Source of the DNA: Salinibacter grassmerensis
GTDB lineage: Bacteria; Bacteroidota; Rhodothermia; Rhodothermales; Salinibacteraceae
DNA length: 64,000 nt
Direction: 5' to 3'
Assembly (NCBI RefSeq): GCF_947077765.1
Contig: NZ_CAMTTF010000001.1
Coordinates: 656,818 to 720,817, forward strand
Shown piece after piece: positions 29,400-62,164 of this stretch; position 1 is the first letter of the stretch, and each line of letters opens with the position of its first letter. The notes under the pieces were generated by a model. That model was given only the letters and a program-made list of their open reading frames with translations. It made no database searches and was not told the origin of the DNA. The translations under genes and the position numbers were made by a program.

Positions 29400-30971
29400 C
29401 TACGATTTGAGAGGGGACGACCGGGCGCCGTTCGTCCGGGGCTGGATGCCGGGGTTCGTTTTCAAGAGCAGATGTCGCAGCCGGGCCGGCGGCTCGCGTG
29501 CCGCCACCGACCGCAGCCGCTGGAGGTGCGCGTTGAGCACGGCACGCGTGTGCGGCACCGGCCCGTCCAGGCCGAGGATGTTCGGGTGCTCGGTGTCGCG
29601 CATCGTTTCGTCGTCCCGTACGAGCCGCTCGCTGAGTTTTTCGCCGGGGCGCCGCCCCACGTACGTGATCATCGTCTCGGGGGCGACGTGCGGGTACCGG
29701 CGTCGGATGAGGCGCTCGGCCAGCCACTGAATCCGAATGGGGTCGCCCATGCGAAAACTGTAGGTCGGGAAGGCGTCGAGGAGGAGGGTGTGTAGGACGA
29801 GCCCGCAGGCCTCCTCCGGGCTCATGAAGTAGCGCTCCATGTCCGGGTGCGTGACGGGGAGCGGCTCGCCCGCGGCAAGCTTCTCTTCGAACCGGGGCAC
29901 GACGCCCCCGTCCGTTCCGAAGACGTTTCCGAAGCGTACCGTCGTACACTGCGTCGAATCCGGTCCTGTGCGCACGTACCACTCGGCCAGTTGGTTGGTC
30001 GTCCCGAGGACGCTGGATGGGTGGACGGCCTTGTCGGTTGACACAAACACAAACCGGTCCACCGCGTGCTGCTCGCAGAGCTGCAGGAGCTGGACGGAGG
30101 CCTGCGTGTTGTTGCGGAATGCCTCGGTGGGATGACGCTCCATGAGGGGGACGTGCTTGTAGGCCGCCGTATGGATCACCACGTCGGGCTGGTGGCGGGC
30201 AAGAAGACTGTCTACCAAGGGGGCGTCGCGCACGTCGGCGACGCACACCTCCAGGTCGCCGCGGTAGCCGTCGGCCCGCAGGGTCTGCTCAAGCCGGTAG
30301 AGATTGCGCTCGCTCATGTCCACGAGCACGATTCGGAGCGGCTCCAGGGCCAGCAGCTGCTGGCTCAGCTCCGATCCGATGGCGCCGCCCGCCCCCGTGA
30401 CGAGCACCGTGCGGTCGGACAGCACGGTGTGCAGGGCAGCCCGGTCCACGGCCACCGGTTCGCGGGGCACGAGGTCGTTCAGGCACACGCTCGGGGGCGA
30501 CACGTCGGGATCCGGACCAACGGATGGAGCGGACTGCATGGCGAGAAGGCCCCGTACCCCCACCCGGACGCCCGGAATGCCGATGAGGGCGACGACGCCC
30601 AGCACTGTGAGGACGCGTCGGGGCGGCATGGCGGCCGGGTCGACCGCGTAGGTCAGTGCAACCGTACCGCTCCACGCGCCGACGAGCCACGCCCCCAGGC
30701 GCAACAGGTCCGACACGTTCATCCGTCGGGGCGAGCGGCAGTAGGTGCCGCTCGCGGCCAGCGCAGTTCCGTATGCGCCCAGAATGAGAAGGGAGGCCAT
30801 GTCCCATTCGGCTGCGTGTGAGAACACCGCGCCTCCAAAGTGAACGGTATAGCCGAGAAGTAGGCCCCCGCACAGGAGCAGCGCATCCGGAAGGGCCAGC
30901 AGGAGCGGCCCCCAACCGCGGAGCCACGTTCCGCCTGTGGTGTGCTCTATGTCCGGGTCGAAAGAGAACAT
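29400..30971 (-). CDS. FlaA1/CapD-type nucleotide-sugar 4,6-dehydratase-like protein, atypical active site
   Basis: A 523-residue membrane protein. Four hydrophobic segments lie at about 18-40, 60-76, 92-108 and 120-140, followed by a Rossmann dehydratase domain with VLVTGAGGAIGSELSQQLL from about residue 188. AAYKHVPLMERHP and STDKAVHP are the expected PglF/WbpM motifs, so the Thr-Asp-Lys trio is kept. The next motif, normally YGATK or MGATK, reads LGTTNQ, so both the Tyr/Met position and the NAD-binding Lys are replaced. The CoA_binding_3-type domain that normally lies between the membrane part and the dehydratase is missing. It may be inactive, may use another route, or may only bind substrate. 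It is last in the five-gene operon. The TTG at 31031 inside the repeat is an alternative start. Confidence 0.85.
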   Translation of the reverse strand: MFSFDPDIEHTTGGTWLRGWGPLLLALPDALLLCGGLLLGYTVHFGGAVFSHAAEWDMASLLILGAYGTALAASGTYCRSPRRMNVSDLLRLGAWLVGAWSGTVALTYAVDPAAMPPRRVLTVLGVVALIGIPGVRVGVRGLLAMQSAPSVGPDPDVSPPSVCLNDLVPREPVAVDRAALHTVLSDRTVLVTGAGGAIGSELSQQLLALEPLRIVLVDMSERNLYRLEQTLRADGYRGDLEVCVADVRDAPLVDSLLARHQPDVVIHTAAYKHVPLMERHPTEAFRNNTQASVQLLQLCEQHAVDRFVFVSTDKAVHPSSVLGTTNQLAEWYVRTGPDSTQCTTVRFGNVFGTDGGVVPRFEEKLAAGEPLPVTHPDMERYFMSPEEACGLVLHTLLLDAFPTYSFRMGDPIRIQWLAERLIRRRYPHVAPETMITYVGRRPGEKLSERLVRDDETMRDTEHPNILGLDGPVPHTRAVLNAHLQRLRSVAAREPPARLRHLLLKTNPGIQPRTNGARSSPLKS

Positions 30972-30989
30972 CAAACGCGCAAGCACCGG

Positions 30990-31041
30990 TAGTTCTGGAA
31001 TCCAATCTGGTCGTTTAGTTCTGGAATCCAATCTGGTCGTT
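30990..31041. repeat. Two tandem copies of a 26-base repeat at the 5' end of the CapD-type gene
   Basis: Positions 30990-31015 and 31016-31041 are identical 26-base units, starting TAGTTCTGGAATCC and ending TCTGGTCGTT. They fill most of the 79-base gap between the GT4 stop (31051) and the ATG at 30971. Because 26 is not a multiple of three, copy number changes the frame of any upstream start such as the TTG at 31031. Confidence 0.9.
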
Positions 31042-45069: not shown

Positions 45070-46310
45070 ATGAGAAACGAGATCAAGCGCACATACCGAT
45101 ACCGCCTGTATCCAAGCGAGGCGCAAAAAGCTGAACTCGCCCGTACGTTCGGGTGTAGCCGATGGGTGTACAACTGGGCGCTTGAGACCAAAACAAAGGC
45201 GTACTATCAGGACGAAGAGTCCCTTTCGTTCACGGGTCTCTCCAGCCGACTCACCTCCAAGAAGAAGGAGGACGAGACCAAGTGGCTGTCGGAGGTCAGT
45301 GCGGTCACGCTCCAACAAAGCCTTCGGAACTTGAATCAGGCGTTCACCAACTTCTTTGAGGGCCGGGCGGAGTACCCATCATTCAAGTCGAAAAAAGGAG
45401 ATCAGACTGCTCGGTACGTGGGCACCGCGTTCGACATCCGAGAAGAGAACGGGAAGCGGAAGCTCCGTCTTTCGAAGATGCCCGGACTGATCAACATCCG
45501 GTGGTCCAGAGAGCTTCCCTCTCAGCCGAGCAGTTGCACCGTCACGAAAAACGCCGCAGGCCAATACCACGTCTGCTTCGTCTGCACCGAGGAAGTCGAA
45601 CTTCTCCCGAGAGTCAACGGAGAGGATGGCGACCTAAAGCCAGTCGGAGTGGACCTTGGTATCGAGAGTCTCGTGACGCTCTCCACGGGCGAGAAAGTCG
45701 GGAATCCGCGCTGGTTCGAGAACGAACAGGAGCGGCTTCGCCGCGAACAACAGAAACTCTCCCGCAAAGAGAAAGGATCGAACAACTGGGAGCGGCAGAG
45801 AAAGCGCGTGGCGAAGGTCCACCAGCGCATTCAAGACCGACGCAAGGACTTCATCGAGAAGCTGACCACACGTCTCGTGGAGAATTTTGACATAATCGTG
45901 GTCGAAGACCTGTCGGTGAAGAGTATGCAGCAAAACAAGAACCTTGCCCGTCATATCTCTCAGGCGGGATGGGGCCAGATTGTCCGACGGCTCCGAGATA
46001 AATGCGAGTGGTACGGGCGTACTCTTGTGGTTTCTGACAAATGGTTTCCATCTAGCCAGCGCTGCTCTGAATGCGGCCACGTCGACGGGAAGAAGCCTCT
46101 CGACGTGCGAGACTGGACGTGCAACGAATGCGGCGCTCATCACGACAGAGATGTTAACGCAGCAAAAAACCTGAGTAGGGTCGGGCAGACCCGAATTCAA
46201 GCACCCGGACAGCTGGATAAGACCGACGCGTTTGAAGTCGTCGGCACCGCTGGATGAACGGTAGAATCCCCCGCAAAGCGACAGCTGGATTAGCCGGGGG
46301 AGAAGTCAAC
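45005..46310 (+). mobile_element. IS605/IS1341-type element carrying only tnpB
   Basis: A single tnpB gene is flanked by a left hairpin (stem 45005-45013 with 45025-45033) and a right-end hairpin (TCCCCCG at 46267-46273 with CGGGGGA at 46295-46301). After the right hairpin the sequence is GAAGTCAAC, close to the GTCAA-type 3' end of this group, and the next base is the ATG of a Uma2-family gene. No tnpA gene is present, so movement would need a transposase from elsewhere. The exact left boundary is not certain; it may lie up to about 60 bases further left. Confidence 0.6.
45070..46257 (+). CDS. tnpB: TnpB, RNA-guided nuclease of the IS200/IS605 family
   Basis: A 395-residue protein of the family ancestral to Cas12 that cuts DNA using a guide RNA made from its own transposon end. 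The N-terminal KRTYRYRLYPSEAQKAELARTFGCSRWVYNW is the usual helix-turn-helix region. The RuvC catalytic residues are present: Asp in PVGVDLGIESLVTL near residue 196, Glu in IVVEDLSVKSM near 279, and Asp in HHDRDVNAAKNLSR near 360. The four zinc cysteines are CSECGH and CNECGA (near 333 and 351). All are intact, so it is probably functional. The start is the ATG at 45070, just after an AT-rich TTGTTGATAAAACA. Confidence 0.95.
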   Translation: MRNEIKRTYRYRLYPSEAQKAELARTFGCSRWVYNWALETKTKAYYQDEESLSFTGLSSRLTSKKKEDETKWLSEVSAVTLQQSLRNLNQAFTNFFEGRAEYPSFKSKKGDQTARYVGTAFDIREENGKRKLRLSKMPGLINIRWSRELPSQPSSCTVTKNAAGQYHVCFVCTEEVELLPRVNGEDGDLKPVGVDLGIESLVTLSTGEKVGNPRWFENEQERLRREQQKLSRKEKGSNNWERQRKRVAKVHQRIQDRRKDFIEKLTTRLVENFDIIVVEDLSVKSMQQNKNLARHISQAGWGQIVRRLRDKCEWYGRTLVVSDKWFPSSQRCSECGHVDGKKPLDVRDWTCNECGAHHDRDVNAAKNLSRVGQTRIQAPGQLDKTDAFEVVGTAG

Positions 46311-46326
46311 ATGCCCCATGCAGCCA
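46200..46326 (+). ncRNA. Candidate TnpB guide RNA (reRNA/omegaRNA) overlapping the tnpB 3' end
   Basis: In this family the guide RNA is read from the 3' end of tnpB through the right end and into flanking DNA. Here the scaffold would include the stem 46267-46273/46295-46301, and the guide would begin at about 46311, which is the first codons of the Uma2-family gene. The 11-base word GACAGCTGGAT occurs at 46208-46218 and again at 46280-46290, and may help form the scaffold. The 5' end is not defined by sequence. Confidence 0.4.
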
Positions 46327-46817
46327 CGCAGGCTGAAGATCACCAGAAGCGATGGCAAGAGATCGCGGGCGACCCGTTGCTCGGTAGGCTCCCTTACAAA
46401 GTTGAGACCAACCACAGAGGCCAGGTCGCCCTGAGCCTACGCAAGAACCGTCACACATTTCAGCAGAAGGCCGTTCAAAAGAAGCTGGACCGGTTGCTTG
46501 CAGGTGGCGAGGCGTTCCAGGAACTGGCAATTGCTACCAGCGGGGGCACAAAACAGGCCGACGTGGTCTGGGCGTCCGACGGTCGGCTCACGGACATGAA
46601 AGAGACCGGAGACCCCACGACCCTTGCTCGGGAGGTTTGCGTCGAGGTGATGAGCGGCTCGAATGATTGGGACGAGATGCGCTCCAAGCGAGAGTTGTAC
46701 CTGGAGGCTGAGGCCGAAGAGGTGTGGGTCGTTGACGAAAACGACCGTGTCCAGTTCTTCGGGCCGGAAGAGCTGGGGCGTTCGGAATTCGCTCCGGACT
46801 TCCCGGATGAGATATAG
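46311..46817 (+). CDS. Uma2-family (DUF820) restriction-endonuclease-like protein
   Basis: A 168-residue protein with a PD-(D/E)xK-like fold. CVEVMSGSNDWDEMRSKRELYLEAEAEEVWVVD near residue 112 is the Uma2 C-terminal core, where the Glu and Lys are candidate catalytic residues. QADVVWASD near 84 could give the active-site Asp. The first 60 residues (helical, Gln/Lys-rich) are less like the family, where a longer N-terminal domain is usual. The ATG at 46311 directly abuts the TnpB element, so the insertion may have replaced the original upstream sequence or promoter. Members are abundant in cyanobacteria and other groups; their role is unproven. Confidence 0.75.
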   Translation: MPHAATQAEDHQKRWQEIAGDPLLGRLPYKVETNHRGQVALSLRKNRHTFQQKAVQKKLDRLLAGGEAFQELAIATSGGTKQADVVWASDGRLTDMKETGDPTTLAREVCVEVMSGSNDWDEMRSKRELYLEAEAEEVWVVDENDRVQFFGPEELGRSEFAPDFPDEI

Positions 46818-47337
46818 CTGAACCTCATGTAGCTAGACTTCGAAGCATGGGGCACGTGTGAAGGGACAACTCCCTCCTGCATTGGGAGACGGAAACTTCT
46901 CGCCAAGAGAGGTGGACCGGACGCCCCGCGACTCTTTTGCAGCAAAAGGTCAAGACAGGGGAATTCTCGGGTGCCGCCCGTGGTTGGCCGTCGACCGGGC
47001 AGTATCCGTCGGAAAAGAACCCCCCGAAGGAACCATTGCAGTGTCCGTGCGGTGGCGCACTACCCTTTGTGCTCGGCACGACGGGCAAGCGTGCTCAAAA
47101 CCGCAGTGGCATTCCCATCGGTGGCGGCCCCAAAGCGCGACGGCCCGGCGGCCTACGAAGCGGCGTAGAGGCGAATATTCGAAAAAGCTGTCGGGGACGG
47201 CGCGGATGCGTTCGCCTTTCTGCCCGGCGCCACTTACCAATTACCTTCGGGTTACTCCCGCTGCCGTCGTCGCGGTTATAGTGCGGCGGCTGCTGTTCGG
47301 CTCCTTCCGGTCTCCCTATCATTCGATCGCCGTTGCG
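46818..47337. other. Long non-coding leader upstream of the export protein gene
   Basis: About 520 bases with no recognisable gene, although the export protein frame is open back to 46858. At 46934-46948 is a perfect palindrome, CTTTTGC-A-GCAAAAG, flanked by GAC and GTC; it could be an operator for the exopolysaccharide cluster. Because this is the first gap before a 16-kb run of plus-strand surface-polysaccharide genes, the main promoter of that cluster is expected here. Confidence 0.4.
46934..46948 (+). promoter_or_regulatory. Palindromic candidate operator upstream of the exopolysaccharide cluster
   Basis: A perfect inverted repeat of seven bases on either side of one central A (CTTTTGC/GCAAAAG). 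It lies about 390 bases before the export protein start and has no T-tract, so protein binding is more likely than termination. Confidence 0.3.
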
Positions 47338-50300
47338 ATGCGCTGGATCCTTTCGGTGCTTTGTGTTCTTCTGACGGCCCTGGCCGTTACGCCCGGCCCG
47401 GCCCAGGCCCAGCAGCGCGAGGAGCTGCCGGAGGAGGCGCGACAGGAGCTGGAGGAACGGGGCATGACGATCGACGAGGCGCGGCAGCGCCTGCGCCAGC
47501 TCGGCATCGACCCGAACAACCCAGAGCAGGCGGCCCGCCGGGCCCGACAGCTGGGCGTGCCGGAGGCGCGCATCCAGTCTCTGTTGCAGGCGGCCCGCCA
47601 GCGGCAAAGCCAAGATACCACGGGGGTCGGAATGGGGCAGCGCCAGGTTCCCCGCAACCCACCCTACCCGGTTCTGGCCGGCACCCCCGAGATCGACCCC
47701 GACAGCATCTCAGTGGGACAGCTGCCCCGCGACATCGAAGTGCGCGTGCCGCTGCGAAGCAGCAATCAGATCCGGCGGGTCCAGCCGGGGTTCCTTACGG
47801 CGGGGGGCGACTCGGTGCAGGCGCAAAATGTTCAGCGGGTCCGTGGCTCGGTGATCAACGGCACGTGGCGGGGCGACTTTACGGTTCCGAAGGACACGAG
47901 CAACGGCACGTGGAGCCTCTTCGTACGGGCCTCCACCCGAGACACGACGGTGACCTTGGCCACGGGCCGTCGCCTTACGATTTTTCCGGAGGGGGAGCTT
48001 CCGGACCGGGACACGACCCGGGCGGACCGGGATACGCTCACGTACTTCGGCTACGACACGTTTAAGACCATCCCGGAGGCCTTTACGCCCCAGCCGGGCG
48101 GGCCCGCCGATGGGGGTTACGTCGTGGGGCCGGACGATGAGCTGCGCCTCACCGTGTGGGGGGGAGCGGAGTTTACGTACGAGCTGCCGGTCGACCAGGG
48201 CGGGCGCGTGACGGTGCCCAATGTGGGCCAGTTTACGGTCTCGGGCAAATCGTTGAAGGAACTGCGGACGGAGATGAAGGAGTGGCTGTCCCAGAGCTAC
48301 TCGGGGCTTACGAGCGACCCGCCGACGGTCTTCATGGACCTCACGCTCACCCGTGTGCGGCCCACGCAGGTCTTTGTGCTCGGCGAGGTGGCACAACCCG
48401 GCGGGTACGTGGTGAGCGGCTACTCGACCGTCTTTAACGCCCTTTACAGCGTGGGCGGGCCCCTGCGCCGCGGAAGCCTGCGCAACATCAGCGTCATCCG
48501 CGACGGGGAGGTCGTCGAAACCGTTGACCTATACGACTACCTGCTGCGGGGATACAGTCCCGACCCGGTGCAGCTGCAGAGCAACGACTACATCTTCGTG
48601 CCACCCCGTGGAGAGACCGTCGCCATCACCGGGCCCGTGAAGCGCCCGGCGTACTACGAGATGAGGGAGGACGAGACGGCGGCGGACCTGCTCGACTACG
48701 CGGGCGGCCTCAAGCCGAACGCCTACACGAAACGCTTCCAGATCGAGCGCATCGTGCCGTTTGCCGAGCGGGAGGACCCGTCTGTGGCCCGTGAGGTACT
48801 CGACGCCAACCTACAGGCGGCCCGCGCCGACACCGCGGAGGTCCCCCTGGCCGACGGCGACCGCGTCAAGGTCCTGTCCATCTCGGAGGCCCAGGCCCCG
48901 GCCGTCAAGGCGCGCGTTGACGCCGCGGAGGTCACGGGGGCGGTCCTCCAGCCGGGCCAGTACGAGATTGGGGGCCAGGTGCGCACCGTCAAGGACCTGA
49001 TCGAGCAGGCGGACGGGCTGACGGGCGACGCCTACCGCGAGCAGGCCACCCTCGTGCGCATCAACGACAGCCTACGCGAGACGAGTCAGTCCCTCGACCT
49101 CCAGTCTGCGATGGAGGATCGACCCCAGTCGAACGTCGTCCTCCGCCCGGGCGACAGCCTGCACGTGGCGTCCGTCCGTGAGATGGAGGCGGACCGTCAG
49201 GTCCGCATCACCGGAGAGGTGCGCGATCCGGGCTCGTACCGCCACCGCCCCGGCATGACGGTGCAGAACCTTCTGCTCAAAGCCGGCGGGCTGACCGACG
49301 ACGAGTACCTCAAGAAGGTTTTTCTGGGCCGGGCCGATCTGTTTCGGGTGTCGAGCGACGGCGACGAGGAGCGGGTGATTCCGTTTCACCTCGGCGACGC
49401 GCTGGCGGGAGAAGGCATGGCGGATCGCAAACTGCGCCCCGAAGATGAGATTCGCATCTACCCGGCGACCCTCGAGCGCCTGGAGGAGAAATTCGTGCAG
49501 ATCAGTGGGGCGGTGCAGGACACCGGCCGCTACGCGTTCCGGGACAACATGACGCTCAAGGACGCCATCCTGCAGGCGAACGGGTTCACCGAGGGGGCCT
49601 CCCTCCGGCAGGTGAGTGTGACCCGGATGGTAGAGCGGGAGGGGCGAGAGGGACGGCGCGCCAGCACGGTGGAGGTGCCCCTGGTCGACCGGGACGTGGA
49701 CCCCAAGAGCGTGAACTTCTCGGTGCGGGATACGGCCCGTGCGCTGGAGGCCGCCGACAACTTTGACCTGCAGCACCGGGACCGCATCTTCATCCGGAAG
49801 AACCCCTCGTTTCAGCCGCAGGAAACCGTCTCGGTCCAGGGAGAGGTGCAGTACCCGGGCGAGTACACGCTGCTCCGCGACAACGAGCGGCTCTCCAACG
49901 TCATCCAGCGGGCCGGAGGCATCTTGCCGACCGGCTACCTAAAGGGCGGGCGGCTCGTCCGGCCGGAGGCACAGGCAGACCAGGACTTCCGGGTGCAGCG
50001 GGAGGGCGAGCAGGTTATCGTTGAGATGGAGCGGGCCGTGCGGGGGAACCCGGCGGAGGATGTGATCCTGCGCCCGGGCGACGAGATTGTCATCCCGACC
50101 CAGCCGAACACCGTGGCCATCCGGGGCAACGTGGCGAACGAGGGGCTCATCAAGCACGAAGACGGGCGGCGCGTGGACTACTACCTCAGTCGCGCCGGCG
50201 GCACGCGCGAGAACACGCAGGATGTGTTCCTCACCCAGGCATCCGGTGCCACGTTCAAGGTCAACACGGGCTGGTTCCGGCGCGCGCCGGTCGTGGACGA

Positions 50301-50436
50301 CGGGGCGGTGATCCGGGTGCAGCCCGAGCCCGAGCAGGAGCAGGAGATCAACTACACCGAGATTGCCTCCAACGTGACCCAGATCCTGTCGAGTGCGCTT
50401 TCCGTGCTGGTGCTTGCGGGCCGGGCCTTCAACTGA
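47338..50436 (+). CDS. Polysaccharide export protein with multiple SLBB domains (Wza-like)
   Basis: A 1032-residue exported protein that would form or gate the outer-membrane channel for exopolysaccharide. The ATG at 47338 gives a signal peptide (LSVLCVLLTALAVTPGPAQAQ). Residues about 25-95 are Gln/Arg/Glu-rich helices. The polysaccharide-export domain starts at about 256 (YVVGPDDELRLTVWGGAEF). The first SLBB is near 345 (VFVLGEVAQPGGYVVSGYSTVFNALYSVGG), and at least five more follow, for example ITGEVRDPGSYRHRPGMTV near 622 and VQGEVQYPGEYTLLRDN near 838. The C-terminus ends with a hydrophobic helix (SSALSVLVLAGRAF). It is much longer than Wza (about 380 residues), as is common in Bacteroidota. 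It leads the plus-strand cluster. Confidence 0.92.
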   Translation: MRWILSVLCVLLTALAVTPGPAQAQQREELPEEARQELEERGMTIDEARQRLRQLGIDPNNPEQAARRARQLGVPEARIQSLLQAARQRQSQDTTGVGMGQRQVPRNPPYPVLAGTPEIDPDSISVGQLPRDIEVRVPLRSSNQIRRVQPGFLTAGGDSVQAQNVQRVRGSVINGTWRGDFTVPKDTSNGTWSLFVRASTRDTTVTLATGRRLTIFPEGELPDRDTTRADRDTLTYFGYDTFKTIPEAFTPQPGGPADGGYVVGPDDELRLTVWGGAEFTYELPVDQGGRVTVPNVGQFTVSGKSLKELRTEMKEWLSQSYSGLTSDPPTVFMDLTLTRVRPTQVFVLGEVAQPGGYVVSGYSTVFNALYSVGGPLRRGSLRNISVIRDGEVVETVDLYDYLLRGYSPDPVQLQSNDYIFVPPRGETVAITGPVKRPAYYEMREDETAADLLDYAGGLKPNAYTKRFQIERIVPFAEREDPSVAREVLDANLQAARADTAEVPLADGDRVKVLSISEAQAPAVKARVDAAEVTGAVLQPGQYEIGGQVRTVKDLIEQADGLTGDAYREQATLVRINDSLRETSQSLDLQSAMEDRPQSNVVLRPGDSLHVASVREMEADRQVRITGEVRDPGSYRHRPGMTVQNLLLKAGGLTDDEYLKKVFLGRADLFRVSSDGDEERVIPFHLGDALAGEGMADRKLRPEDEIRIYPATLERLEEKFVQISGAVQDTGRYAFRDNMTLKDAILQANGFTEGASLRQVSVTRMVEREGREGRRASTVEVPLVDRDVDPKSVNFSVRDTARALEAADNFDLQHRDRIFIRKNPSFQPQETVSVQGEVQYPGEYTLLRDNERLSNVIQRAGGILPTGYLKGGRLVRPEAQADQDFRVQREGEQVIVEMERAVRGNPAEDVILRPGDEIVIPTQPNTVAIRGNVANEGLIKHEDGRRVDYYLSRAGGTRENTQDVFLTQASGATFKVNTGWFRRAPVVDDGAVIRVQPEPEQEQEINYTEIASNVTQILSSALSVLVLAGRAFN

Positions 50437-50613
50437 TACGTGGAACGAAGTTTGATTAAAGTGTTTGGGCGAGGGGACATCTTGGTCATTTCATCCCACT
50501 GCGGGTTTTACGTTTACAGTAAGGAAGGAGCTCGAACGCACCCGGATCTACCGGGGCGGCATCGTTCCTCCGCGTCTTCCGACGCTCACTTTTTCACTTC
50601 AGGCCGTCTCTGC

Positions 50614-51618
50614 ATGACATATTTAATCACGGGGGGCGCCGGATTTATCGGGAGCCACCTTGCCGATCGCCTCATCGAAAACGGGCACCGTGTGCGGGTC
50701 CTCGACGACCTCTCGACGGGGCGCCGAGAAAACATTGCCCACCTGGAAGGCCGCGACGAGTTTACGCTGACGACCGGGAGCGTTCTCGACGAGGATGTCC
50801 TGGACCGAGAAATCGGCGCTGCTGATCGGGTCGTCCACTTGGCGGCGGCGGTGGGCGTGAAGCGCATTCTGGATCGGCCGGTGGAGACGATCCACACCAA
50901 CGTCGATGGCACGAAAAATGTGCTCCAGCGGGCCGCCGAGGAGGACAAAAAGGTTCTGGCGGCCTCCACCTCCGAGGTCTACGGGAAGGCCATGCAGGAG
51001 AACGAAGACCTCGAGGCCCTTTCGGAGACGGACAACTGGACCCTCGGGGCGACCGGCAAACGGCGCTGGGCATACGCGTGCACGAAGGCAATGGATGAGT
51101 TTCTGGCCCAGGCCTACCACGACGAGTACGGCCTTCCGGTGACCTGCGTCCGCTTCTTCAACACGGCGGGCCCGCGGCAGTCCGGACAGTACGGCATGGT
51201 GATCCCGACGTTCGTCGAACGGGCCCTGAGCGGACAGCCCCTCGATATCCACGGAGACGGCACCCAGACGCGCTGCTTTACCCACATCGACGATGCGGTT
51301 CGGGCGGTCGTCCAACTCCTGGATACGCCGGCGGCTGAGGGGGAGGTGGTCAACGTCGGACAGCCGACGGAGATCTCCATTAACGACCTAGCCGAGCGGG
51401 TCCTGGCGCTCACGGGTTCGAACGCGGACGTCCGGCACGTGCCCTACGAAGAGGTCTATGGCGACGGGTTCGAAGACATGAAGCGCCGGACGCCGGACTG
51501 CTCAAAGCTTGCTGACCTCACCGGATACGAACCCCAACGCACCGTCGACGACATCCTGCGTGACGTGATCGAGGAGGTGGGAGCAGCGAAAGACGAGGAA
51601 GCTGGGGCTGTCGCGTAA
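50614..51618 (+). CDS. NAD-dependent sugar-nucleotide epimerase/dehydratase
   Basis: A 334-residue extended short-chain dehydrogenase. The NAD motif [19 protein letters not shown] is at the N-terminus. HLAAAVGVKRILDRP lies near residue 75, STSEVYGKAMQEN near 116 (Ser/Thr and Glu), YACTKAMDEFLAQAY near 150 (Tyr and Lys) and VRFFNTAGPRQSGQYGMVIPTFV near 175. This is the pattern of UDP-glucose 4-epimerase and UDP-glucuronate decarboxylase-like enzymes of capsule clusters, with a dehydratase-type ring left open. The ATG at 50614 is fixed by the NAD motif. It follows the export gene by 177 bases and precedes the lipid-sugar transferase by 89. Confidence 0.9.
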   Translation: MTYLITGGAGFIGSHLADRLIENGHRVRVLDDLSTGRRENIAHLEGRDEFTLTTGSVLDEDVLDREIGAADRVVHLAAAVGVKRILDRPVETIHTNVDGTKNVLQRAAEEDKKVLAASTSEVYGKAMQENEDLEALSETDNWTLGATGKRRWAYACTKAMDEFLAQAYHDEYGLPVTCVRFFNTAGPRQSGQYGMVIPTFVERALSGQPLDIHGDGTQTRCFTHIDDAVRAVVQLLDTPAAEGEVVNVGQPTEISINDLAERVLALTGSNADVRHVPYEEVYGDGFEDMKRRTPDCSKLADLTGYEPQRTVDDILRDVIEEVGAAKDEEAGAVA

Positions 51619-51707: not shown

Positions 51708-53585
51708 GTGCTTTCGAGTCTATCCCACTTGTCGGTGAGCGTTTGGGCGGTCGCCGCCGCGTGCCTGTCGGGCGCAGCGACGCTGCTGCTCACGCCCGCC
51801 ATGATCAAGGTGGCGTACACGTTTGACTGGGTCGATTACCCGCAGGTAGACCGCTGGCACACTACCCCGACCGCCCTGATGGGTGGTATGGCCATGTATG
51901 GAGCGGGAACGATTGCACTGTTCCTCCTGGGATCCCTGTCAGGGGCGGGCGCCGACGTGGGGGTGATCTGGGGCGGGGCGTCGCTGCTATTCGCCGTCGG
52001 ACTGGTCGATGACCTGTGGGGGATGGGGCCCGCCGCGAAGCTTGCGGCGCAGGTCGGAGCGACCGGTCTTCTGATGGCCGCTGGTTATACGTTTGGCCCC
52101 GAGTGGCCGCTGTGGGTGTCGGGGCCAGTCACGCTCGTTTGGGTCATCGGGATCACCAACGCCGTGAACCTGCTCGACAACATGGACGGGCTCGCGGCCG
52201 GCATCGGAGGCATTGCGGCGGTGGCGCTGACGGCCTTTGCGGCGGCGGGCGGGTCGCTGCCGGCCGTACTTCTAGGAGGAACGATCGGGGGGGCGGCCTT
52301 GGGGTTTCTGTGGTTCAACGCAAAGCCGGCCCGCATCTTCATGGGCGACTGCGGGAGTCTGGTCCTCGGGTACGGGGTGGCCGCCCTGGCGGTCATGGGG
52401 CAGGGGGCGGTGGAGACGGGGCCCGGCGTGGCGGTCCTCGCGTCGATCTGTGCGCTGGCAGTGCCCATCCTCGACACGACCCTCGTCACCGTAACGCGAA
52501 TGCGGGCGGGTCGCTCGGTGGCGGATGGGGGACAGGATCATACGTCGCACCGGCTGGTCTCGGCCGGGCTCCCGGAACAGGCGTCCGTCGGCGCGCTCCA
52601 CGGGATCGGCGTAGGCGCTGGTGGATTCGGACTGCTGGCGCTGGTCGTGGATCCGACGCTCTTCTACGCTGCGTGCGCCCTGGGGACGGTGGCGCTGGGG
52701 ATCCTGGGGATACACCTGGGCCGGCTCGATGTGCAGACGGCGGTCCGGGTGGGCGGAGACGGCGCGCCGGGCTCGTCACGAGACGCGCAGAGCGGACTGG
52801 AAGCATGGCCGAAAGAATCGATCAGCCTAATTGGCGACGGGCTTCTGGTCGGCGGCGCCTTCGCGGCCGCCCACGCCCTCAGCGGGGCGGACAGTGCCTC
52901 GGTGGTTCCGCTCGTCGAGGGGCTTCTTCTCGTCGGCGGGGGAAAGCTCGCCCTGTTTGCCGCGATGGGGCTCTACCGGCGCCTCTGGCGACACGCCGGC
53001 ACCCCGGGCATCGCGCGGATCGTTGGGACGGCGCTTCTGGCCGAGGGAGCGGCTGCGGGGGGACTGGCGCTCGTGTACGGATCCGGTGCACTCGCCGGGC
53101 CGCTGTTGACGATTGACGGGTTGATCGTTATCGTGGGACTGCTTGGTACTCGGCTAGGCTTTCGGGGGCTGCGCCAGGGTATCTCGTTTTACAAATCTCG
53201 TCTTGAGTCCTCCGAAGCGGCCTCCAACGTGCTCCTCTGCGGAGCAGGAGAGCAAGGGATACTCGCCCTACGGGCGCTCCGAGACGCGGAAGAAATAGAC
53301 CGCGTGCCGGTCGGGTTTGTGGACCCGGACGCCTCGAAACAGGATCGAGTAGTCCAGGGGCTCCCGGTTCTCGGGGGAATCGACGCCTGTGGCGACCTTT
53401 GCCGGGAACACGACGTCGACGAGGTGATCGTGGCGACCGACGCCCCAGGTCCCGAACAGGAGGTATCCCGGCAGTGTGCAGAGGCCGGTGTGGAGTGCCG
53501 GTCATTTGACGTGCGCCTTACGCCGCTCCAGCCGGAGCGCGAGGCGGCCGACTACTCTGGCCGTGCGACCCCGCCTGCTGCGTAA
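51708..53585 (+). CDS. WecA-type phosphoglycosyltransferase fused to CapD-like membrane and nucleotide-binding domains
   Basis: A 625-residue two-part protein. Residues 1-340 are a polytopic transferase that moves a HexNAc-phosphate to undecaprenyl phosphate. Its motifs are GLVDDLWGMGPAAKL near 101, NLLDNMDGLAAGIGG near 154, FMGDCGSLVLGYG near 211 and the histidine motif DHTSHRLVSAGL near 277. From about 370 a second membrane region of four segments begins, with GLYRRLWRHA near 423. It is followed by a nucleotide-binding domain of about 110 residues from about 505 (VLLCGAGEQGILALRALRDAEEI, then GFVDPD and VQGLPVLGG). This second half matches the N-terminal half of FlaA1/CapD proteins but stops before the dehydratase domain. 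The GTG at 51708 is the likely start. Confidence 0.88.
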   Translation: MLSSLSHLSVSVWAVAAACLSGAATLLLTPAMIKVAYTFDWVDYPQVDRWHTTPTALMGGMAMYGAGTIALFLLGSLSGAGADVGVIWGGASLLFAVGLVDDLWGMGPAAKLAAQVGATGLLMAAGYTFGPEWPLWVSGPVTLVWVIGITNAVNLLDNMDGLAAGIGGIAAVALTAFAAAGGSLPAVLLGGTIGGAALGFLWFNAKPARIFMGDCGSLVLGYGVAALAVMGQGAVETGPGVAVLASICALAVPILDTTLVTVTRMRAGRSVADGGQDHTSHRLVSAGLPEQASVGALHGIGVGAGGFGLLALVVDPTLFYAACALGTVALGILGIHLGRLDVQTAVRVGGDGAPGSSRDAQSGLEAWPKESISLIGDGLLVGGAFAAAHALSGADSASVVPLVEGLLLVGGGKLALFAAMGLYRRLWRHAGTPGIARIVGTALLAEGAAAGGLALVYGSGALAGPLLTIDGLIVIVGLLGTRLGFRGLRQGISFYKSRLESSEAASNVLLCGAGEQGILALRALRDAEEIDRVPVGFVDPDASKQDRVVQGLPVLGGIDACGDLCREHDVDEVIVATDAPGPEQEVSRQCAEAGVECRSFDVRLTPLQPEREAADYSGRATPPAA

Positions 53586-53636: not shown

Positions 53637-55094
53637 ATGGCGACTCCTGACAACATGGAGGTCCCTGATCTCGACCCGCCGCCCTCGGAGGACCTCTCCT
53701 CCAACGGCGCCGCGAAGACGACTCGGTCCGGGTCCGCCGCGGCCCGGCAGTTGGCCCAGCGCCTCGATACGACCGAGGCGACCATCGGGGTCGTTGGGCT
53801 GGGGTATGTGGGGCTGCCGCTGGCGGTCGAGTACGCCACGCAAGGCTTCGAGACGCGGGGGGTGGACCTGGACGAGGACCGCGTCCAGCGCCTCAACGCG
53901 GGCGATAATTATATTGAGGACCTCGACGACGAGGCGATCGAGGGCCTGGTGGAAATGGAACGGTTGTGGGCCACGTCCCACTACGACGAGAGCGAGGACG
54001 TGGACGTGTGGTTTCTCTGCGTACCAACCCCCGTGACGGAGACCAACGAGCCGGACTCCGCTTACATCGAGGCGGCCACCCGCTCGATCGCGCCGCACCT
54101 TCGGCCCGGCCAGCTCGTGGTCCTGAAAAGCACCACCTACCCGGGCACGACGGAAGATGTCGTCGCGCCGATTCTGCGGGAGGAGGGGCCGAGCGGCCTG
54201 ACACTGGGGGAGGATGTGTTTCTCGCGTTCAGCCCCGAGCGCATCGACCCGGGAAACGACGAGTACACGACCGCAAACACGCCCGTGGTAGCGGGGGGCG
54301 TGACAGAGGCCTGTACGGACCTGGCCCGACGGGCATTGGGGCAGATCATTGCCGACGTGCATACGGTTTCCGGCCCGAAGGTGGCCGAGATGGAAAAGCT
54401 CTTGGAGAACATCTTCCGGTCGGTCAACATCGCCCTGGCCAATGAGCTAGCCCAGCTCTGTGAACGGGTGGACGACCTGTCGATGTGGGAGGTGGTTGAC
54501 GCGGCGGCGACGAAGCCGTTCGGGTTCATGCCGTTCTACCCCGGGCCGGGCGTGGGGGGACACTGCATCCCGATCGACCCGCACTACCTGGCAAAAGTGG
54601 CCAAGACGCACGACTTCGAGACGAGCTTCATCACCCTCTCCGCCCAGGTCAACGAGCAGATGCCGCGGCACGTGGTCGACGCGGTGATCGAGGCGATTGC
54701 CCGCGAGCCGGTGCGCCTGCAGGACGCGGAGGTGCTGGTGCTCGGCGTGGCGTTTAAGGGCAACGTATCCGACACGCGCCGCTCCCCCGCCAATGAAATT
54801 ATCCGGTTGCTCCGGGCGAAAGACATCGGCCAGGTTCGGTACTATGATCCCCACGTCGACGCTCATAATGTGTCTGAGGGTACGAACGGACCGGCCGAAG
54901 AGGTGCCGTCGATCGACCTGACGCCCGAGACGCTCCGACACCACGAGGCGACGGTGATCGTGACGGACCACGACGCTTTGGACGCGGGCCTTGTCGCGGA
55001 GCATGCGCCGGCCATCGTCGACACCCGTAACGCGCTCGGCGAGATTGAAACTCCGGTGCTGCGAGAGAAGATCACGCTGCTGGGGGCGGGGTGA
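53637..55094 (+). CDS. UDP-sugar 6-dehydrogenase (WecC/WbpA-like)
   Basis: A 485-residue NAD enzyme that oxidises the C6 hydroxyl of a UDP-sugar to a carboxylate, giving a uronic acid for an acidic polysaccharide. The NAD motif IGVVGLGYVGLPLAVEYA is near residue 44, after an acidic N-terminal tail. KSTTYPGTTEDVV lies near 163 and FSPERIDPGNDEY near 197. The catalytic Cys is in GVGGHCIPIDPHYL near residue 309. The C-terminal domain has LGVAFKGNVSDTRRSPANEI near 368. The sequence is of the UDP-HexNAc dehydrogenase kind, not the shorter UDP-glucose type, though the substrate is inferred. A hairpin with a T-tract follows the stop. Confidence 0.93.
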   Translation: MATPDNMEVPDLDPPPSEDLSSNGAAKTTRSGSAAARQLAQRLDTTEATIGVVGLGYVGLPLAVEYATQGFETRGVDLDEDRVQRLNAGDNYIEDLDDEAIEGLVEMERLWATSHYDESEDVDVWFLCVPTPVTETNEPDSAYIEAATRSIAPHLRPGQLVVLKSTTYPGTTEDVVAPILREEGPSGLTLGEDVFLAFSPERIDPGNDEYTTANTPVVAGGVTEACTDLARRALGQIIADVHTVSGPKVAEMEKLLENIFRSVNIALANELAQLCERVDDLSMWEVVDAAATKPFGFMPFYPGPGVGGHCIPIDPHYLAKVAKTHDFETSFITLSAQVNEQMPRHVVDAVIEAIAREPVRLQDAEVLVLGVAFKGNVSDTRRSPANEIIRLLRAKDIGQVRYYDPHVDAHNVSEGTNGPAEEVPSIDLTPETLRHHEATVIVTDHDALDAGLVAEHAPAIVDTRNALGEIETPVLREKITLLGAG

Positions 55095-55278: not shown

Positions 55279-56517
55279 ATGAGCACTGCCGACGACCAAA
55301 ACCAGACAGATGGTCCTCCGGGGACACCACCTGGTGATGGGTCACCTGCAGAACAGCCGGGCTACGGTCCTCGGAAAGAAGACGAGGTGTCCCTGCTGGA
55401 CATCCTGCTCGTCCTGGCCCGTCATAAGCCCCTCATCGTGCGGACGGTGCTTGTCTTCGCATTGCTGGGCGTTACCTATGCTTTGCTGGCGCCGGAGAAA
55501 TTCAAGTCGGAAGCGCGGGTGGTGCGGGAAGCGCAAACGGAGGGGGGGGGTGATCTGCCAGGGGGGATTTCACCAGGGGCGCTCTCGGGATTTGGCATTA
55601 GTCTGGGAGGGAGTGCGAGTGGTCTCACGCCGGCGGCTTTTCCGGACGTGCTGCAGAGCCGCGAGGTACGGCTGGCCGTGGTGCGAGATACGTTCCGCTT
55701 TCCGGACGCCGGGCAACCGATGACGTATGTCGACTACATGAACCGCCCGGCGGGGCCGCTGAGCACGGTGATGAACTACACACTCTGGTTGCCCTGGACG
55801 CTCAAGAGTGCGCTCAGGGATGCCATCTCGGGATCTCCGGCACCGGCGGGAACGACGGACGCGGGGGAGCCGATGATTCCGAGTGAGGACGAGGATGCGG
55901 CGTTAAAGTCCGTCTCCGAGAAAATATCGGCGTCGGTGAATGAGGAGACGGGTTTGATGACCATTTCGGTGACGGCTGGGGGGCCGCAGCTGGCGTCGGC
56001 CTTCGCGGAAAGCTTCCTCGATCACTTCACGACGCGGGTGCGGGAGATTCGGACGGAAAAGGTGCGGGAGCGGTTGCAGTTTGTGGAGGGTCGCTTTGTG
56101 GAAGCTGAGCAGGAGCTGGAAGCAGCGGAGGACGAGCTGGCGCAATTTTTGGAGCGCAATCAGAACCCGACGACGGCAACTCTCCAGTTTCGCCGGGATC
56201 GTCTTCAGCGGCAGGTCCGCTTTAAAGAAGAACTATATAGCAGTCTTCAGAGTCAACTGACGCAGACACGGCTCGATCTTCAGCGTCGTCAGCCCGTGGT
56301 AACGGTGGTCGAGAAGTCGGTACCCCCGATGCAACGGAGTGCGCCGAAGCGTACTCAGATTGTCTTGATCTTTTTTGCCCTAGGTGGAGCTCTTGGAATC
56401 GGTGGAGCATTCGGAAAATCGTTCATCGAGCAGACTGAAGAGAGCTCCGAAGAGCGTGAGAAAATCGAGGAGGTAAAAAGGAATCTCGTTCCGGAACGGT
56501 GGCATGAGAAAGTATAA
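55279..56517 (+). CDS. wzz: Wzz-type polysaccharide chain-length determinant protein
   Basis: A 412-residue inner-membrane co-polymerase that sets polysaccharide chain length. A soluble, Gly/Pro-rich N-terminus leads to the first membrane segment at about 52-72 (IVRTVLVFALLGVTYALL), then a large periplasmic domain with a long coiled coil at about 260-330. The second segment is at about 358-378 (IVLIFFALGGALGIGGAFG). No tyrosine-kinase domain is present, so it is the O-antigen/capsule type. A run of nine G residues (55542-55550) lies inside the gene and codes part of EGGGD; slippage there would break the frame. Confidence 0.88.
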   Translation: MSTADDQNQTDGPPGTPPGDGSPAEQPGYGPRKEDEVSLLDILLVLARHKPLIVRTVLVFALLGVTYALLAPEKFKSEARVVREAQTEGGGDLPGGISPGALSGFGISLGGSASGLTPAAFPDVLQSREVRLAVVRDTFRFPDAGQPMTYVDYMNRPAGPLSTVMNYTLWLPWTLKSALRDAISGSPAPAGTTDAGEPMIPSEDEDAALKSVSEKISASVNEETGLMTISVTAGGPQLASAFAESFLDHFTTRVREIRTEKVRERLQFVEGRFVEAEQELEAAEDELAQFLERNQNPTTATLQFRRDRLQRQVRFKEELYSSLQSQLTQTRLDLQRRQPVVTVVEKSVPPMQRSAPKRTQIVLIFFALGGALGIGGAFGKSFIEQTEESSEEREKIEEVKRNLVPERWHEKV

Positions 56518-58822: not shown

Positions 58823-59982
58823 TGATGGACGTAACGGTTTCATTTTTTGGAAGGTTTTGGTCATTTAATTTGGCTAATCAACTTCATAAAAGAGGTTGTC
58901 TACGTAGTCTCGTTACAAGCTATCCTGCAAGTGAGGCAGAGAAGTTTGGCGTTCCAAAAGATCGAATACATTCACTTCCACACTACGAGGCGCTGCAACG
59001 AATTTTGGGACGCTTTTCAGGATGGATACCTAAGCTCCATAAGTTTGAGTATTGGGTAAAAAAGAGGTTTGAAAACGCTGCAGCACGTCATATATCAGAA
59101 AATGATGATATATTTGTTGGTCTATCTGGTGTATCGGAGAGGGGACTGAAAAGAGCGAAAAAGTTAGATATTATACCTATACTAGAGCGAGGCTCGTCGC
59201 ATGTAGAATATCAAAAAAGGTTGCTCAAAGAAGAGGTAGAGAGAGAGGGTATAGATATAGATATGCCTAGTAACAAATATGTAGAAAAAGAAAAAAGAGA
59301 GTACGAAAAATCTGACTTGATAATTGTTCCTTCTAAGTTCGTAAAAAAATCATTCTTAGATAAAGGTATTAAAGAATCGAAAGTACATAATATACCTTTT
59401 GGTGTAGATGTCGAGGAGTTTAGCCCCGTCGAGAAAAAAGATGATATATTTAGGGTGGTTTTTGCTGGCCAAATGATGCTACGAAAAGGAGTTCATTACC
59501 TTTTGAAGGCGTTCTCCGAGTTAGACTTGCCAAATTCGGAATTATTGTTGATTGGCTCCAAGAGACCTGAGATAGATCCTTATTTTAAAAAATATGAAGG
59601 CTCCTTCAGGTTTGTTGGTCACAAACCCCAAAAAGAGCTTTATAAGTACTATTCTCAAGGGACAGTTTTTGCTATGTGCTCGATTGAAGAGGGGTTGGCG
59701 ATGGTGCAACCGCAGGCGATGGCCTGCGGACTTCCACTCATCTGCACTCCTAACACTGGGGGTAGTGACCTTATACGTGAAGAGAAAGAAGGATTTGTTA
59801 TCCCTATTCGTGACGTGAAAGCTTTAAAAGAAAAAATACAATGGTGTTACGAGAACCGTGGCGAGTGTACCGAAATGGGGAGGAGGGCAAAGAATCGGAT
59901 ACACAGTAACTTTACCTGGGACGATTATGGGGACCGAGTTTTTAAAAAATACTCTGAAATAATAAATAATAATGAGAGATAA
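58819..59982 (+). CDS. Glycosyltransferase family 4, AT-rich
   Basis: A 387-residue GT-B glycosyltransferase. MDVTVSFFGRFWSFNLANQLHKRG opens the acceptor domain. VVFAGQMMLRKGVHYLLKAFSEL near 213 starts the donor domain. FAMCSIEEGLAMVQPQAMACGLPLICTPNTGGSDL near 282 holds a GT4 EX7E-like motif. The first 860 bases are AT-rich, with many AAA, ATA and AGA codons, while the stretch around the conserved donor motif (59690-59780) returns to higher GC. That pattern suggests foreign DNA. GTG (58819) or ATG (58822 or 58825) may start it; the overlap with the upstream stop implies coupled translation. Confidence 0.87.
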   Translation: MMMDVTVSFFGRFWSFNLANQLHKRGCLRSLVTSYPASEAEKFGVPKDRIHSLPHYEALQRILGRFSGWIPKLHKFEYWVKKRFENAAARHISENDDIFVGLSGVSERGLKRAKKLDIIPILERGSSHVEYQKRLLKEEVEREGIDIDMPSNKYVEKEKREYEKSDLIIVPSKFVKKSFLDKGIKESKVHNIPFGVDVEEFSPVEKKDDIFRVVFAGQMMLRKGVHYLLKAFSELDLPNSELLLIGSKRPEIDPYFKKYEGSFRFVGHKPQKELYKYYSQGTVFAMCSIEEGLAMVQPQAMACGLPLICTPNTGGSDLIREEKEGFVIPIRDVKALKEKIQWCYENRGECTEMGRRAKNRIHSNFTWDDYGDRVFKKYSEIINNNER

Positions 59983-60907
59983 GGAAATTTCCGTTGTATA
60001 CATTTTGAGTAGTGGACGAAGCGGGTCCACGCTGACTGATCTGCTTCTTGGTTCCCTTCCCGGCTTTTGGACGCTGGGAGAGGCCTCGATGCTGCCTTAT
60101 GAACTTCGCGATGAAAGATCACCATGCGGGTGTGGGAATCCGATTTCGCAGTGTGACTTTTGGGATGAGGTGGTTCCACGGATTTCTCTTGACGAGGATA
60201 GACCTTATCCGATCGGGTACTTCCGAGAAAGTTATTCTAGACGGATAACACTCCGATGGCGTGAAGTGACCTCCATACTCAGTGGAAGTATCACCTCAGT
60301 TCAGGCCCGGGCAGCTCGAGAGTATGGAGCGGTAAATGCTAAGTATTTTGCTGCTGTCAGAGCACAGGCATCGGTTGAAGGTAGCAGCACAGTCGAATGG
60401 CTGATAGATGCCTCGAAGGATCCGTACCGTCTATATTGGCTTCTTTACTCCGGAAGATTCAACCTCCGGGTCGTACATTTGACGAAAGATCCTAGAGCGT
60501 ACGTTTATTCGATGGCACGCGGGCATGACTCGTATTCGGTTCGCGACGTTATACGATGGGCTGGTCGCTGGGCTGTTGATAACTTCATACAGTCGGCACT
60601 TACGAAGATTCATTTCGGGGATGCGTCAGTCCTTCACCGTCGATACGAAGACATTGCAACCCATCCCTCGGAAATGTTGTCTGATATCAAGAAATGGTTG
60701 GACGTGCCCGGCCAGCTCAGCCGTGATGAGAAAAAAGGATTGATAAGAGGGTATAAAAACCATGCAGTATCAGGTAACAAAATGAGGTGGGAGGATACAA
60801 AAATAGAGCTGGACGAGAAATGGAAGAGGAACCTATCTGAGAACGAAAAAAATATGGTATGGTTTGTGGCGGGCTGGCTTGCAACTTTGTACGGATACGA
60901 GAGATAG
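59972..60907 (+). CDS. PAPS-dependent sulfotransferase
   Basis: A 311-residue sulfotransferase that would move sulfate from PAPS to a sugar hydroxyl. The 5'-phosphosulfate loop is VVYILSSGRSGSTLTDLLLGSLPG at residue 8. CGCGNPISQCDFWDEV near 51 is a Cys-rich motif common in bacterial carbohydrate sulfotransferases. The 3'-phosphate-binding motif is VVHLTKDPRAYVYSMARGH near 168, and HRRYEDIATHP near 223 is the usual C-terminal motif. It starts 11 bases before the end of the upstream glycosyltransferase, so it belongs to the polysaccharide transcript. PAPS would come from cysD and cysNC, which lie 22 kb upstream on the same strand. Confidence 0.88.
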   Translation: MRDKEISVVYILSSGRSGSTLTDLLLGSLPGFWTLGEASMLPYELRDERSPCGCGNPISQCDFWDEVVPRISLDEDRPYPIGYFRESYSRRITLRWREVTSILSGSITSVQARAAREYGAVNAKYFAAVRAQASVEGSSTVEWLIDASKDPYRLYWLLYSGRFNLRVVHLTKDPRAYVYSMARGHDSYSVRDVIRWAGRWAVDNFIQSALTKIHFGDASVLHRRYEDIATHPSEMLSDIKKWLDVPGQLSRDEKKGLIRGYKNHAVSGNKMRWEDTKIELDEKWKRNLSENEKNMVWFVAGWLATLYGYER

Positions 60908-62164
60908 GTGCAGAAAAATTTCCGCGATTTAAAAGAGTTCTTCTCGAGTGAGGCATCCAGGAGCGCCAACTGGTTGGTGAGTGGAGGAGTACTTCGGGCA
61001 GGAATTGCTTTTCTAGCCAATCTTGCTCTTGTTCGTCTTCTTTCACCAGAGGACTTTGGTCGATTTGCGATTATTCAAGCAGACATCAGTCTTGTGGCGG
61101 CCATTGTAAACTTTCAGACGGGTCCTCTGATCGTACAAGCTCCAGAAGAACACTTGGAGCCTTACCAATTGAGCCGCTATACCGGTGCTTTGATTGTCGA
61201 AACTTTGCTCATTACAGGTGGAGGGATTATAACCTTATGGGTCTTAGACCTAATTACGCTGGGGGCAGTGGTACTCCTCGGCTCTTCACTGATGTCTATT
61301 TGGATCGATACGGAGGTCAAACTCTACGAGCGGAACTTCGAGTATAAAAACATTACCTACGTTGAAACGACCGCTCACGTCCTGAGTCGGTCGTTCGCTG
61401 TTCTGGGTGCTTTTTTCGGAATGGGGCCTCTCGTGTTGTATTTGAGAAAAGCTATTAAGCAGACCATCGTCTTTGAGGGACTTCGCCAACTTGGTGGCCT
61501 CACTTCACTGCCTTTCCGCTGGCTTTCGTTGAAAGACTGGGAAATACATATTCGTCGATTGAGTGGATTCTGGGCTGACGGGCTTTTGGAACGCATGTTT
61601 GACCGAGTCACCGTGATGATCCTTGGAAGGGTTGCGGGGGAGGAAACGACAGGATACTTTTATCAAGCGAGAAGGCTTGCCATTATTCCGAATCAGATCC
61701 TCCGTCCTTTTTCTTACAGGATGGCCTTTAACTATTTCAGTAATCGGATATCCGAGGATGAAAGATATTCGACGCTTTGGAGGGGACTCGCCATTGAAGG
61801 GGGGGTCCTTGCCATTTTGGCTGCAGCATGCTGGTTACTAGCTGATCCCATTGTCCCGTGGCTTTTTGGGGAGGAATGGAGTTCCGTTGTACCTATGCTT
61901 ATTGCCATGATAGGGGTCATTATAGGAATGCCAATCTTCGGAACAGTACAGGTATATTTGAAAGCAATAGATAAAGTCACAACCTTTATAGTATGGGGGA
62001 GGGGTGTTCAGTACACTATGATTATAATAGCGGCCTCCTTAGCAGCGATCGACTTGTTGAATGCAGGAGTTCTTCTCTCGGCAGGTCTTTCAGCGGGCTT
62101 TATTGGAGGGGCTATTGCCTCTTGGGGAGTCATACATTACCACTACAGTAAAGTACAAAAATAA
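60908..62164 (+). CDS. wzx: Wzx-type oligosaccharide flippase
   Basis: A 418-residue polytopic membrane protein of the polysaccharide transporter (MOP) superfamily. The N-terminus SANWLVSGGVLRAGIAFLANLALVRLLSPEDFGRFAIIQADISLV is the family signature. About 10 to 12 hydrophobic segments follow; RLSGFWADGLLERMFDRVTVMILGRVAGEETTGYFYQARRLAIIPNQ-type text near residue 215 marks the middle of such flippases. It would move undecaprenyl-linked repeat units across the inner membrane for polymerisation under Wzz control. No Wzy polymerase is seen in the window. The start is a GTG directly after the sulfotransferase stop. Confidence 0.87.
   Translation: MQKNFRDLKEFFSSEASRSANWLVSGGVLRAGIAFLANLALVRLLSPEDFGRFAIIQADISLVAAIVNFQTGPLIVQAPEEHLEPYQLSRYTGALIVETLLITGGGIITLWVLDLITLGAVVLLGSSLMSIWIDTEVKLYERNFEYKNITYVETTAHVLSRSFAVLGAFFGMGPLVLYLRKAIKQTIVFEGLRQLGGLTSLPFRWLSLKDWEIHIRRLSGFWADGLLERMFDRVTVMILGRVAGEETTGYFYQARRLAIIPNQILRPFSYRMAFNYFSNRISEDERYSTLWRGLAIEGGVLAILAAACWLLADPIVPWLFGEEWSSVVPMLIAMIGVIIGMPIFGTVQVYLKAIDKVTTFIVWGRGVQYTMIIIAASLAAIDLLNAGVLLSAGLSAGFIGGAIASWGVIHYHYSKVQK

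Follow-up and report, generated by a model that had tools for sequence, protein, structure and literature searches.

A WecA/MraY-type phosphoglycosyl transferase fused to the four-helix and nucleotide-binding module of WbaP- and CapD-type proteins in a polysaccharide gene cluster of Salinibacter grassmerensis

Overview

Within a polysaccharide gene cluster of Salinibacter grassmerensis, a single intact gene joins a polytopic phosphoglycosyl transferase (PNPT) domain of the WecA/MraY kind to a four-helix membrane bundle and a PF13727 nucleotide-binding domain. This C-terminal module is shared by the large monotopic transferases, WbaP among them, and by the membrane dehydratases FlaA1/CapD. The gene lies in a 64,000-nucleotide stretch of DNA, hereafter the window, whose relevant features are collected in Table 1. 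We give an even chance to the reading that the fusion is the initiating enzyme of an exopolysaccharide pathway and carries, in parallel with WbaP, a uridine-nucleotide-responsive and probably dimerising regulatory module. No description of a PNPT plus CoA_binding_3 fusion was found in the open-access literature; PF00953 and PF13727 are each known, and the fusion of both may already stand in domain-architecture databases.

Table 1. Coordinates of the fused gene, its parts, neighbouring genes and the double chimeras (window positions unless a locus is named)
Feature	Position	Strand	Evidence or remark
Fused gene: PNPT + four-helix bundle + PF13727 nucleotide-binding domain, 625 aa	51708..53585	+	Frame, Pfam, AlphaFold2
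PNPT catalytic domain, residues 1-340, 11 predicted membrane helices, MraY fold	51708..52727	+	PF00953; Foldseek
Catalytic Asp pair D101-D102	52008..52013	+	Invariant in 28 aligned fusions
NAVNLLDNMDGL motif, N151-L162	52158..52193	+	N151, N154, D157, D160 invariant in 28; aligned with MraY of known structure
FMGDCGS motif, F211-S217	52338..52358	+	F211, M212, G213, D214, G216, S217 invariant in 28; aligned with MraY
DHxxHR motif, D277-R282	52536..52553	+	D277, H278, H281, R282 invariant in 28
Four-helix membrane bundle, residues 369-500, homologous to WbaP and CapD N-terminal bundle	52812..53207	+	AlphaFold2, VIA-align, profile match
Rossmann-like nucleotide-binding domain PF13727, cytoplasmic, residues 506-600	53223..53507	+	Pfam; 3nkl_B Z 14.6; 3nkl E 1.5e-17
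Glycine-rich loop GAGEQG, residues 512-517	53241..53258	+	Typical loop kept in this copy
Polysaccharide export protein	46858..50436	+	Poly_export + SLBB repeats
SDR-family NDP-sugar enzyme, conserved upstream neighbour	50440..51618	+	Nearest solved relatives UDP-glucuronate decarboxylases
Nucleotide-sugar dehydrogenase (TIGR03026), conserved downstream neighbour	53637..55094	+	Nearest solved relatives UDP-ManNAc(A) dehydrogenases
Wzz-type chain-length regulator	55279..56517	+	
Wzx-type flippase family	60908..62164	+	Polysacc_synt
CapD-type dehydratase P0002, N-terminal membrane part, without nucleotide-binding domain	29400..31031	-	PF02719 at 209-486; no PF13727
Double chimera	L152:799-3291	-	
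Double chimera	L153:1480-3981	+	
Double chimera	L156:325-2808	-	
Double chimera	L159:331-2832	-	
Double chimera	L274:1489-3975	+	

Architecture of the fusion

The 625-residue frame opens with a GTG start and has no internal stops. Pfam places PF00953 (Glycos_transf_4) at residues 86-231 (E 1.2e-30; 107.1 bits against a cut-off of 27) and PF13727 (CoA_binding_3) at residues 461-576 (E 3.5e-6), the latter with a score (27.6 bits against a curated cut-off of 25) that barely exceeds the threshold and that we count against the uridine-nucleotide-sensor explanation. Both domains are matched in 28 of 28 aligned relatives, PF13727 at E <= 0.01. An earlier note on this DNA, made by a model from the letters and open reading frames, had observed that no dehydratase follows the C-terminal part, and Pfam indeed matched no dehydratase domain (PF02719) in the fusion, nor the monotopic catalytic domain PF02397. 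The same note had named a frameshift artefact as grounds for rejecting its account; a frameshift or assembly artefact is ruled out by the uninterrupted frame, by an orthologue of 74% identity and by numerous relatives of equal architecture. In one relative the fusion copy is split into two overlapping frames, through either a frameshift or an assembly error.

The AlphaFold2 model of the full protein (mean pLDDT 83, 28-sequence alignment) consists of an MraY-like half, four extra membrane helices (369-392, 402-419, 434-457 and 464-500) and an alpha/beta domain at 506-599, and ends in a disordered tail whose residues, 611-625, fall under pLDDT 50. Lysine and arginine amount to 13.2 per 100 residues in the predicted cytoplasmic loops vs 2.4 in the periplasmic loops; this positive-inside pattern supports a topology of 11 PNPT helices plus four, in which the catalytic motifs and the nucleotide-binding domain are all cytoplasmic. 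For the N-terminal half, the best PDB matches found by Foldseek with the full model are MraY structures (6oyh_D, E 6.4e-8, TMt 0.72), with 3nkl and WbaP 8t53 ranking lower. NCBIfam groups this part with WecA/MraY, and the catalytic motifs DD, NxxNxxDG, FxGDxGS and HxxH are intact in the 28 sequences.

The earlier note had likened the C-terminal half to the part of FlaA1/CapD proteins that precedes the dehydratase domain. That likeness stands, but it is not specific to FlaA1/CapD, as the large monotopic transferases match equally. TIGR03025 (EPS_sugtrans), which corresponds to the first half of the large monotopic transferases, matches residues 405-597 with 48 bits (NCBIfam), and a sequence profile of the C-terminal half recovers 3nkl, the stand-alone nucleotide-binding domain of a CapD-like protein (E 1.5e-17), along with WbaP entries (E 7e-8), the latter matched through helices and domain alike. 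When this half is modelled alone (pLDDT 88, 48 sequences), its top two PDB entries are again 3nkl and WbaP. VIA-align superposes it on 3nkl with Z 14.6 over 101 residues and on WbaP 8t53 with Z 12.0 over the 209 residues of bundle plus domain, the high rmsd of the latter (10.9) suggesting that bundle and domain are placed differently relative to each other. In WbaP, moreover, a dimerising beta-hairpin follows the domain where the fusion has its disordered tail, so that dimerisation of the fusion, if any, differs. The mean identity of the window protein to its relatives is 37-41% in the C-terminal half vs 49% in the PNPT half, by which measure the former evolves somewhat faster; within the fusion family its residues D470, R482, G551 and C597 are invariant.

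The surrounding polysaccharide cluster

The cluster comprises rmlBACD-type genes, the export protein, the SDR, the fusion, the dehydrogenase, Wzz, glycosyltransferases, the flippase and two sulfotransferases. The gene order SDR - fusion - dehydrogenase is kept in at least 13 further genomes, and acidobacterial and Nitrospirota loci likewise have an SDR upstream of the fusion. Between rmlD and the export gene lie an IS605 OrfB/TnpB-type gene (PF01385, PF07282) and then a Uma2-family gene (PF05685); since rmlD directly adjoins the export gene in two relatives, this segment (45070-46817, plus strand) looks like an insertion. At 35055-38092 and 59972-63214 (plus strand), PAPS reductase-type and GTPase/APS-kinase genes upstream, together with two sulfotransferase-family genes in the cluster, suggest that the product is a sulfated polysaccharide.

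Distribution and origins of the fusion

A search with the C-terminal half gave matches in 34 of 60 relatives, and the frame of PNPT, bundle and domain is present in nearly all of the more complete genomes of the window's family as well as in other families of the order. A scan of genome contigs recovered full-length fusions from Acidobacteriota, Planctomycetota, Omnitrophota and Thermodesulfobacteriota, and also from records of Chloroflexota, Nitrospirota, Chlorobiota and Bacteroidota, so the fusion is widespread, occurring in at least six phyla besides its own and the acidobacterial phylum. Matches spanning the whole model were found in 33 of 199 genomes of the acidobacterial phylum, sampled around a Pyrinomonadaceae genome, and in 12 of the 296 genomes sampled from the window's own phylum, two of these being double chimeras of the kind described below; further candidates of 646-666 residues exist in the latter phylum, with a profile match that ends earlier. 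In the window's own genome, a tblastn match at C1:987162 was discarded, as it overlies no open reading frame matching either half. One relative has a variant that lacks the four-helix bundle, its PNPT domain running straight into the nucleotide-binding domain (L056:810-2261, plus strand; 484 aa from the chosen start).

Additionally, twelve loci form a second, paralogous fusion clade in the family, whose members lack the SDR and dehydrogenase neighbours. The GxGxxG loop is kept in only 2 of these 12, vs 12 of 16 in the window's clade, and this predominant loss means that nucleotide sensing cannot hold for all fusions. Eroded loop and missing neighbours together hint at divergent regulation in the paralogous clade.

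In the PNPT tree, the main fusion clade contains the Rhodothermales-like relatives, Acidobacteriota and others, while a second fusion group comprises relatives from Bacteroidota and Chlorobiota with a DxxHIHH-type motif; stand-alone enzymes lie between the two. The AU test rejects a single clade both for the fusions by themselves (p 0.033) and when the double chimeras are included (p 0.0125). These double chimeras, proteins of 828-834 aa from relatives within the phylum, carry PF00953, PF13727 and a complete PF02397 in one frame; they were found in 8 of the 60 genomes sampled around genome G293, with 51-89% identity to the query and one N-terminally partial, at the five loci of Table 1 and at L157, L268 and L273 (partial). 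In the C-half tree the fusions are separate from both CapD and the large transferases, whereas the double chimeras cluster with the large monotopic transferases, away from the other fusions, and so are probably of separate origin. These comparisons suggest that PNPT domains acquired such a module on no fewer than two, and probably three, occasions, always in the same order; this number of joining events is provisional because both trees were made by quick methods and contain some long branches. As to whether CapD or a large transferase was the nearest source of the C-terminal half, the C-half tree, with its quick method and several long branches, favours neither. PF13727 also occurs in other settings: a 719-aa protein (L256:5306-7462, plus strand) has CoA_binding_3 together with a GT2 glycosyltransferase domain and, of Bac_transf, just the C-terminal part, and candidate frames of similar size (about 690-760 aa) that bear PF13727 are common in the window's order, often near a large transferase.

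Proposed function and alternative readings

In the scheme that we favour, the fusion would be the phosphoglycosyl transferase that initiates synthesis in a Wzx/Wzz-type exopolysaccharide cluster. Judging from its family and invariant motifs, the PNPT half would transfer a hexosamine-1-phosphate, probably N-acetylated, from a UDP-sugar to undecaprenyl phosphate with release of UMP. By analogy with WbaP, the C-terminal module would most likely bind uridine nucleotides (UMP/UDP and/or UDP-sugar) and help the fusion to dimerise, and a build-up of UMP would lower its activity and thereby spare the shared lipid carrier. The homologous domain of WbaP is reported to bind UMP, UDP and UTP and to be destabilised by UDP-Gal, most inter-chain contacts of WbaP fall in this PF13727-type domain, and UMP inhibits the full-length enzyme (IC50 4.1 uM; PMC10942596). 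On its simplest reading, the module may give a polytopic enzyme feedback from uridine nucleotides in the cytoplasm, an interface for dimerisation, or both. The earlier proposal, that a sensor domain governs the step with which lipid-linked sugar synthesis begins, finds support in principle, as it fits the nucleotide binding and UMP inhibition of WbaP.

Several other roles have to be weighed against this one. The C-terminal half might be purely structural, dimerising the enzyme or docking pathway partners without sensing any small molecule; Wzz, the glycosyltransferases, the flippase or an activating response regulator would be candidate partners. The location of the WbaP inter-chain contacts points this way, as does EpsZ of Myxococcus, for which activation has been proposed through contact of the corresponding region with the response-regulator protein EpsW (PMC12802240), and the paralogous clade retains the domain while losing its glycine loop. 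However, the loop is kept in most of the window's clade and uridine nucleotides do affect the domain of WbaP (PMC10942596), and we judge a purely structural role rather unlikely. More doubtful still is a domain that responds to one particular UDP-sugar, for instance a UDP-uronate or UDP-pentose, produced by the adjacent SDR and dehydrogenase, and tunes the first step to donor supply. It would agree with the conserved gene order, with the destabilising effect of UDP-Gal on the WbaP domain and with the coincidence that the glycine loop was lost in just the clade that lacks these neighbours, but the donor and product of the neighbours are putative, and the synteny may merely reflect a common pathway. 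Finally, the domain could bind NAD(H) and tie the start of chain synthesis to redox state in the manner of the Rex regulators, whose fold is similar. NAD(H)-bound Rex structures are among the best fold matches of the C-terminal half (VIA-align, Z 13-14), and a GxGxxG loop with an acidic residue after strand 2, as present here, is typical of NAD-binding Rossmann folds; Rossmann similarity is nevertheless generic, and the closest sequence relatives are the WbaP domain, reportedly responsive to uridine nucleotides, and its CapD counterparts, leaving a redox role improbable.

The remaining readings concern the CapD-type gene of the window and the ancestry of the module. The earlier note had held that this gene lacks the nucleotide-binding domain found in the fusion, which is borne out, and that the two proteins look like complementary pieces of a rearranged set, which is not. 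The gene is the only strong CapD-type gene of the genome and has N-terminal hydrophobic segments, PF13727 is matched genome-wide only in the fusion, and a small monotopic transferase near the CapD gene (32910-33659, minus strand), the genome's only PF02397 protein, likewise lacks the domain. While the division of domains would suit two halves working together, the genes lie about 21 kb apart on opposite strands and each occurs without the other. CapD genes without the domain are conserved in the window's family and two others. Four genomes of these two other families have such a gene without the fusion; the fusion without such a gene is present in five genomes of the comparison, which includes some incomplete assemblies. 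Fusion-bearing genomes of other phyla, moreover, contain complete CapD proteins with four membrane helices, nucleotide-binding domain and dehydratase (five genomes) or complete large monotopic transferases (six genomes). Such fusions are thus common and unrelated to CapD partners, the very finding that the earlier note had named as telling against it and that here bears on this half of its account; this independent distribution leaves the rearranged set unsupported, and complementary halves seem highly improbable. A related suggestion drawn from PF13727 counts, that the fusion substitutes for large monotopic transferases in the family, was rejected, since PF02397 proteins of about 500 aa exist in several members as well, a few of them with a weak match to the nucleotide-binding domain. 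That the C-terminal half is left over from a one-time dehydratase or monotopic transferase, decaying and without function, could be read from its lower identity among relatives, but the open frame and domain are retained across phyla and four of its residues are invariant, so we find this scarcely credible.

Comparison with known systems

An initiating enzyme under uridine-nucleotide control, our preferred reading of the fusion, bears on how limited undecaprenyl phosphate is shared among competing surface-polymer pathways. We tentatively propose, at somewhat less than even confidence, that the four-helix plus PF13727 unit is a transferable control module that throttles undecaprenyl phosphate use by uridine-nucleotide feedback and has become combined with phosphoglycosyl transferases of two unrelated superfamilies; this proposal also takes into account the dehydratases and the GT2-type glycosyltransferase that carry the unit, its acquisition by PNPT enzymes more than once and the proteins of about 830 residues with both transferase superfamilies. 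The part played by PF13727 in initiating enzymes had been called unclear before WbaP supplied a first link to UMP; should the module make a catalytic domain of unrelated fold sensitive to UMP, it would be a general sensor. Annotation by one domain, as WecA-like or CapD-like, overlooks the combination.

Among characterised systems, the WbaP-type large monotopic transferases (Lg-PGT; WbaP, WcaJ, EpsZ) share with the fusion the four-helix bundle and PF13727 domain and, as predicted from sequence, the class of reaction in which a sugar-1-phosphate is passed to undecaprenyl phosphate. The fusion differs from them in lacking PF02397 and in placing an unrelated, polytopic PNPT catalytic domain ahead of the module. 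The double chimeras likewise place a PNPT domain ahead of a module of this kind but, unlike the window fusion, keep a complete monotopic catalytic domain. With WecA, TagO and MraY the fusion has in common PF00953, the MraY fold and the Asp-Asp, NxxNxxD, GDxGS and His motifs, whereas these classical enzymes stop after the catalytic domain and the fusion continues for about 260 residues. The summary table of the WbaP paper lists polytopic enzymes as 'PGT only' (eLife 2024, PMC10942596); as the fusion illustrates, polytopic enzymes are not all confined to a catalytic domain. For MraY, inhibition by externalised lipid II has been proposed (PMC10914600), with control exerted at the enzyme's own dimer interface and not via an added domain as proposed for the fusion. 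The membrane UDP-sugar dehydratases FlaA1, CapD and PglF, lastly, resemble the fusion in their four-helix and nucleotide-binding part, 3nkl being the top fold match, but the fusion has no dehydratase domain and the C-half tree places the fusions apart from CapD.
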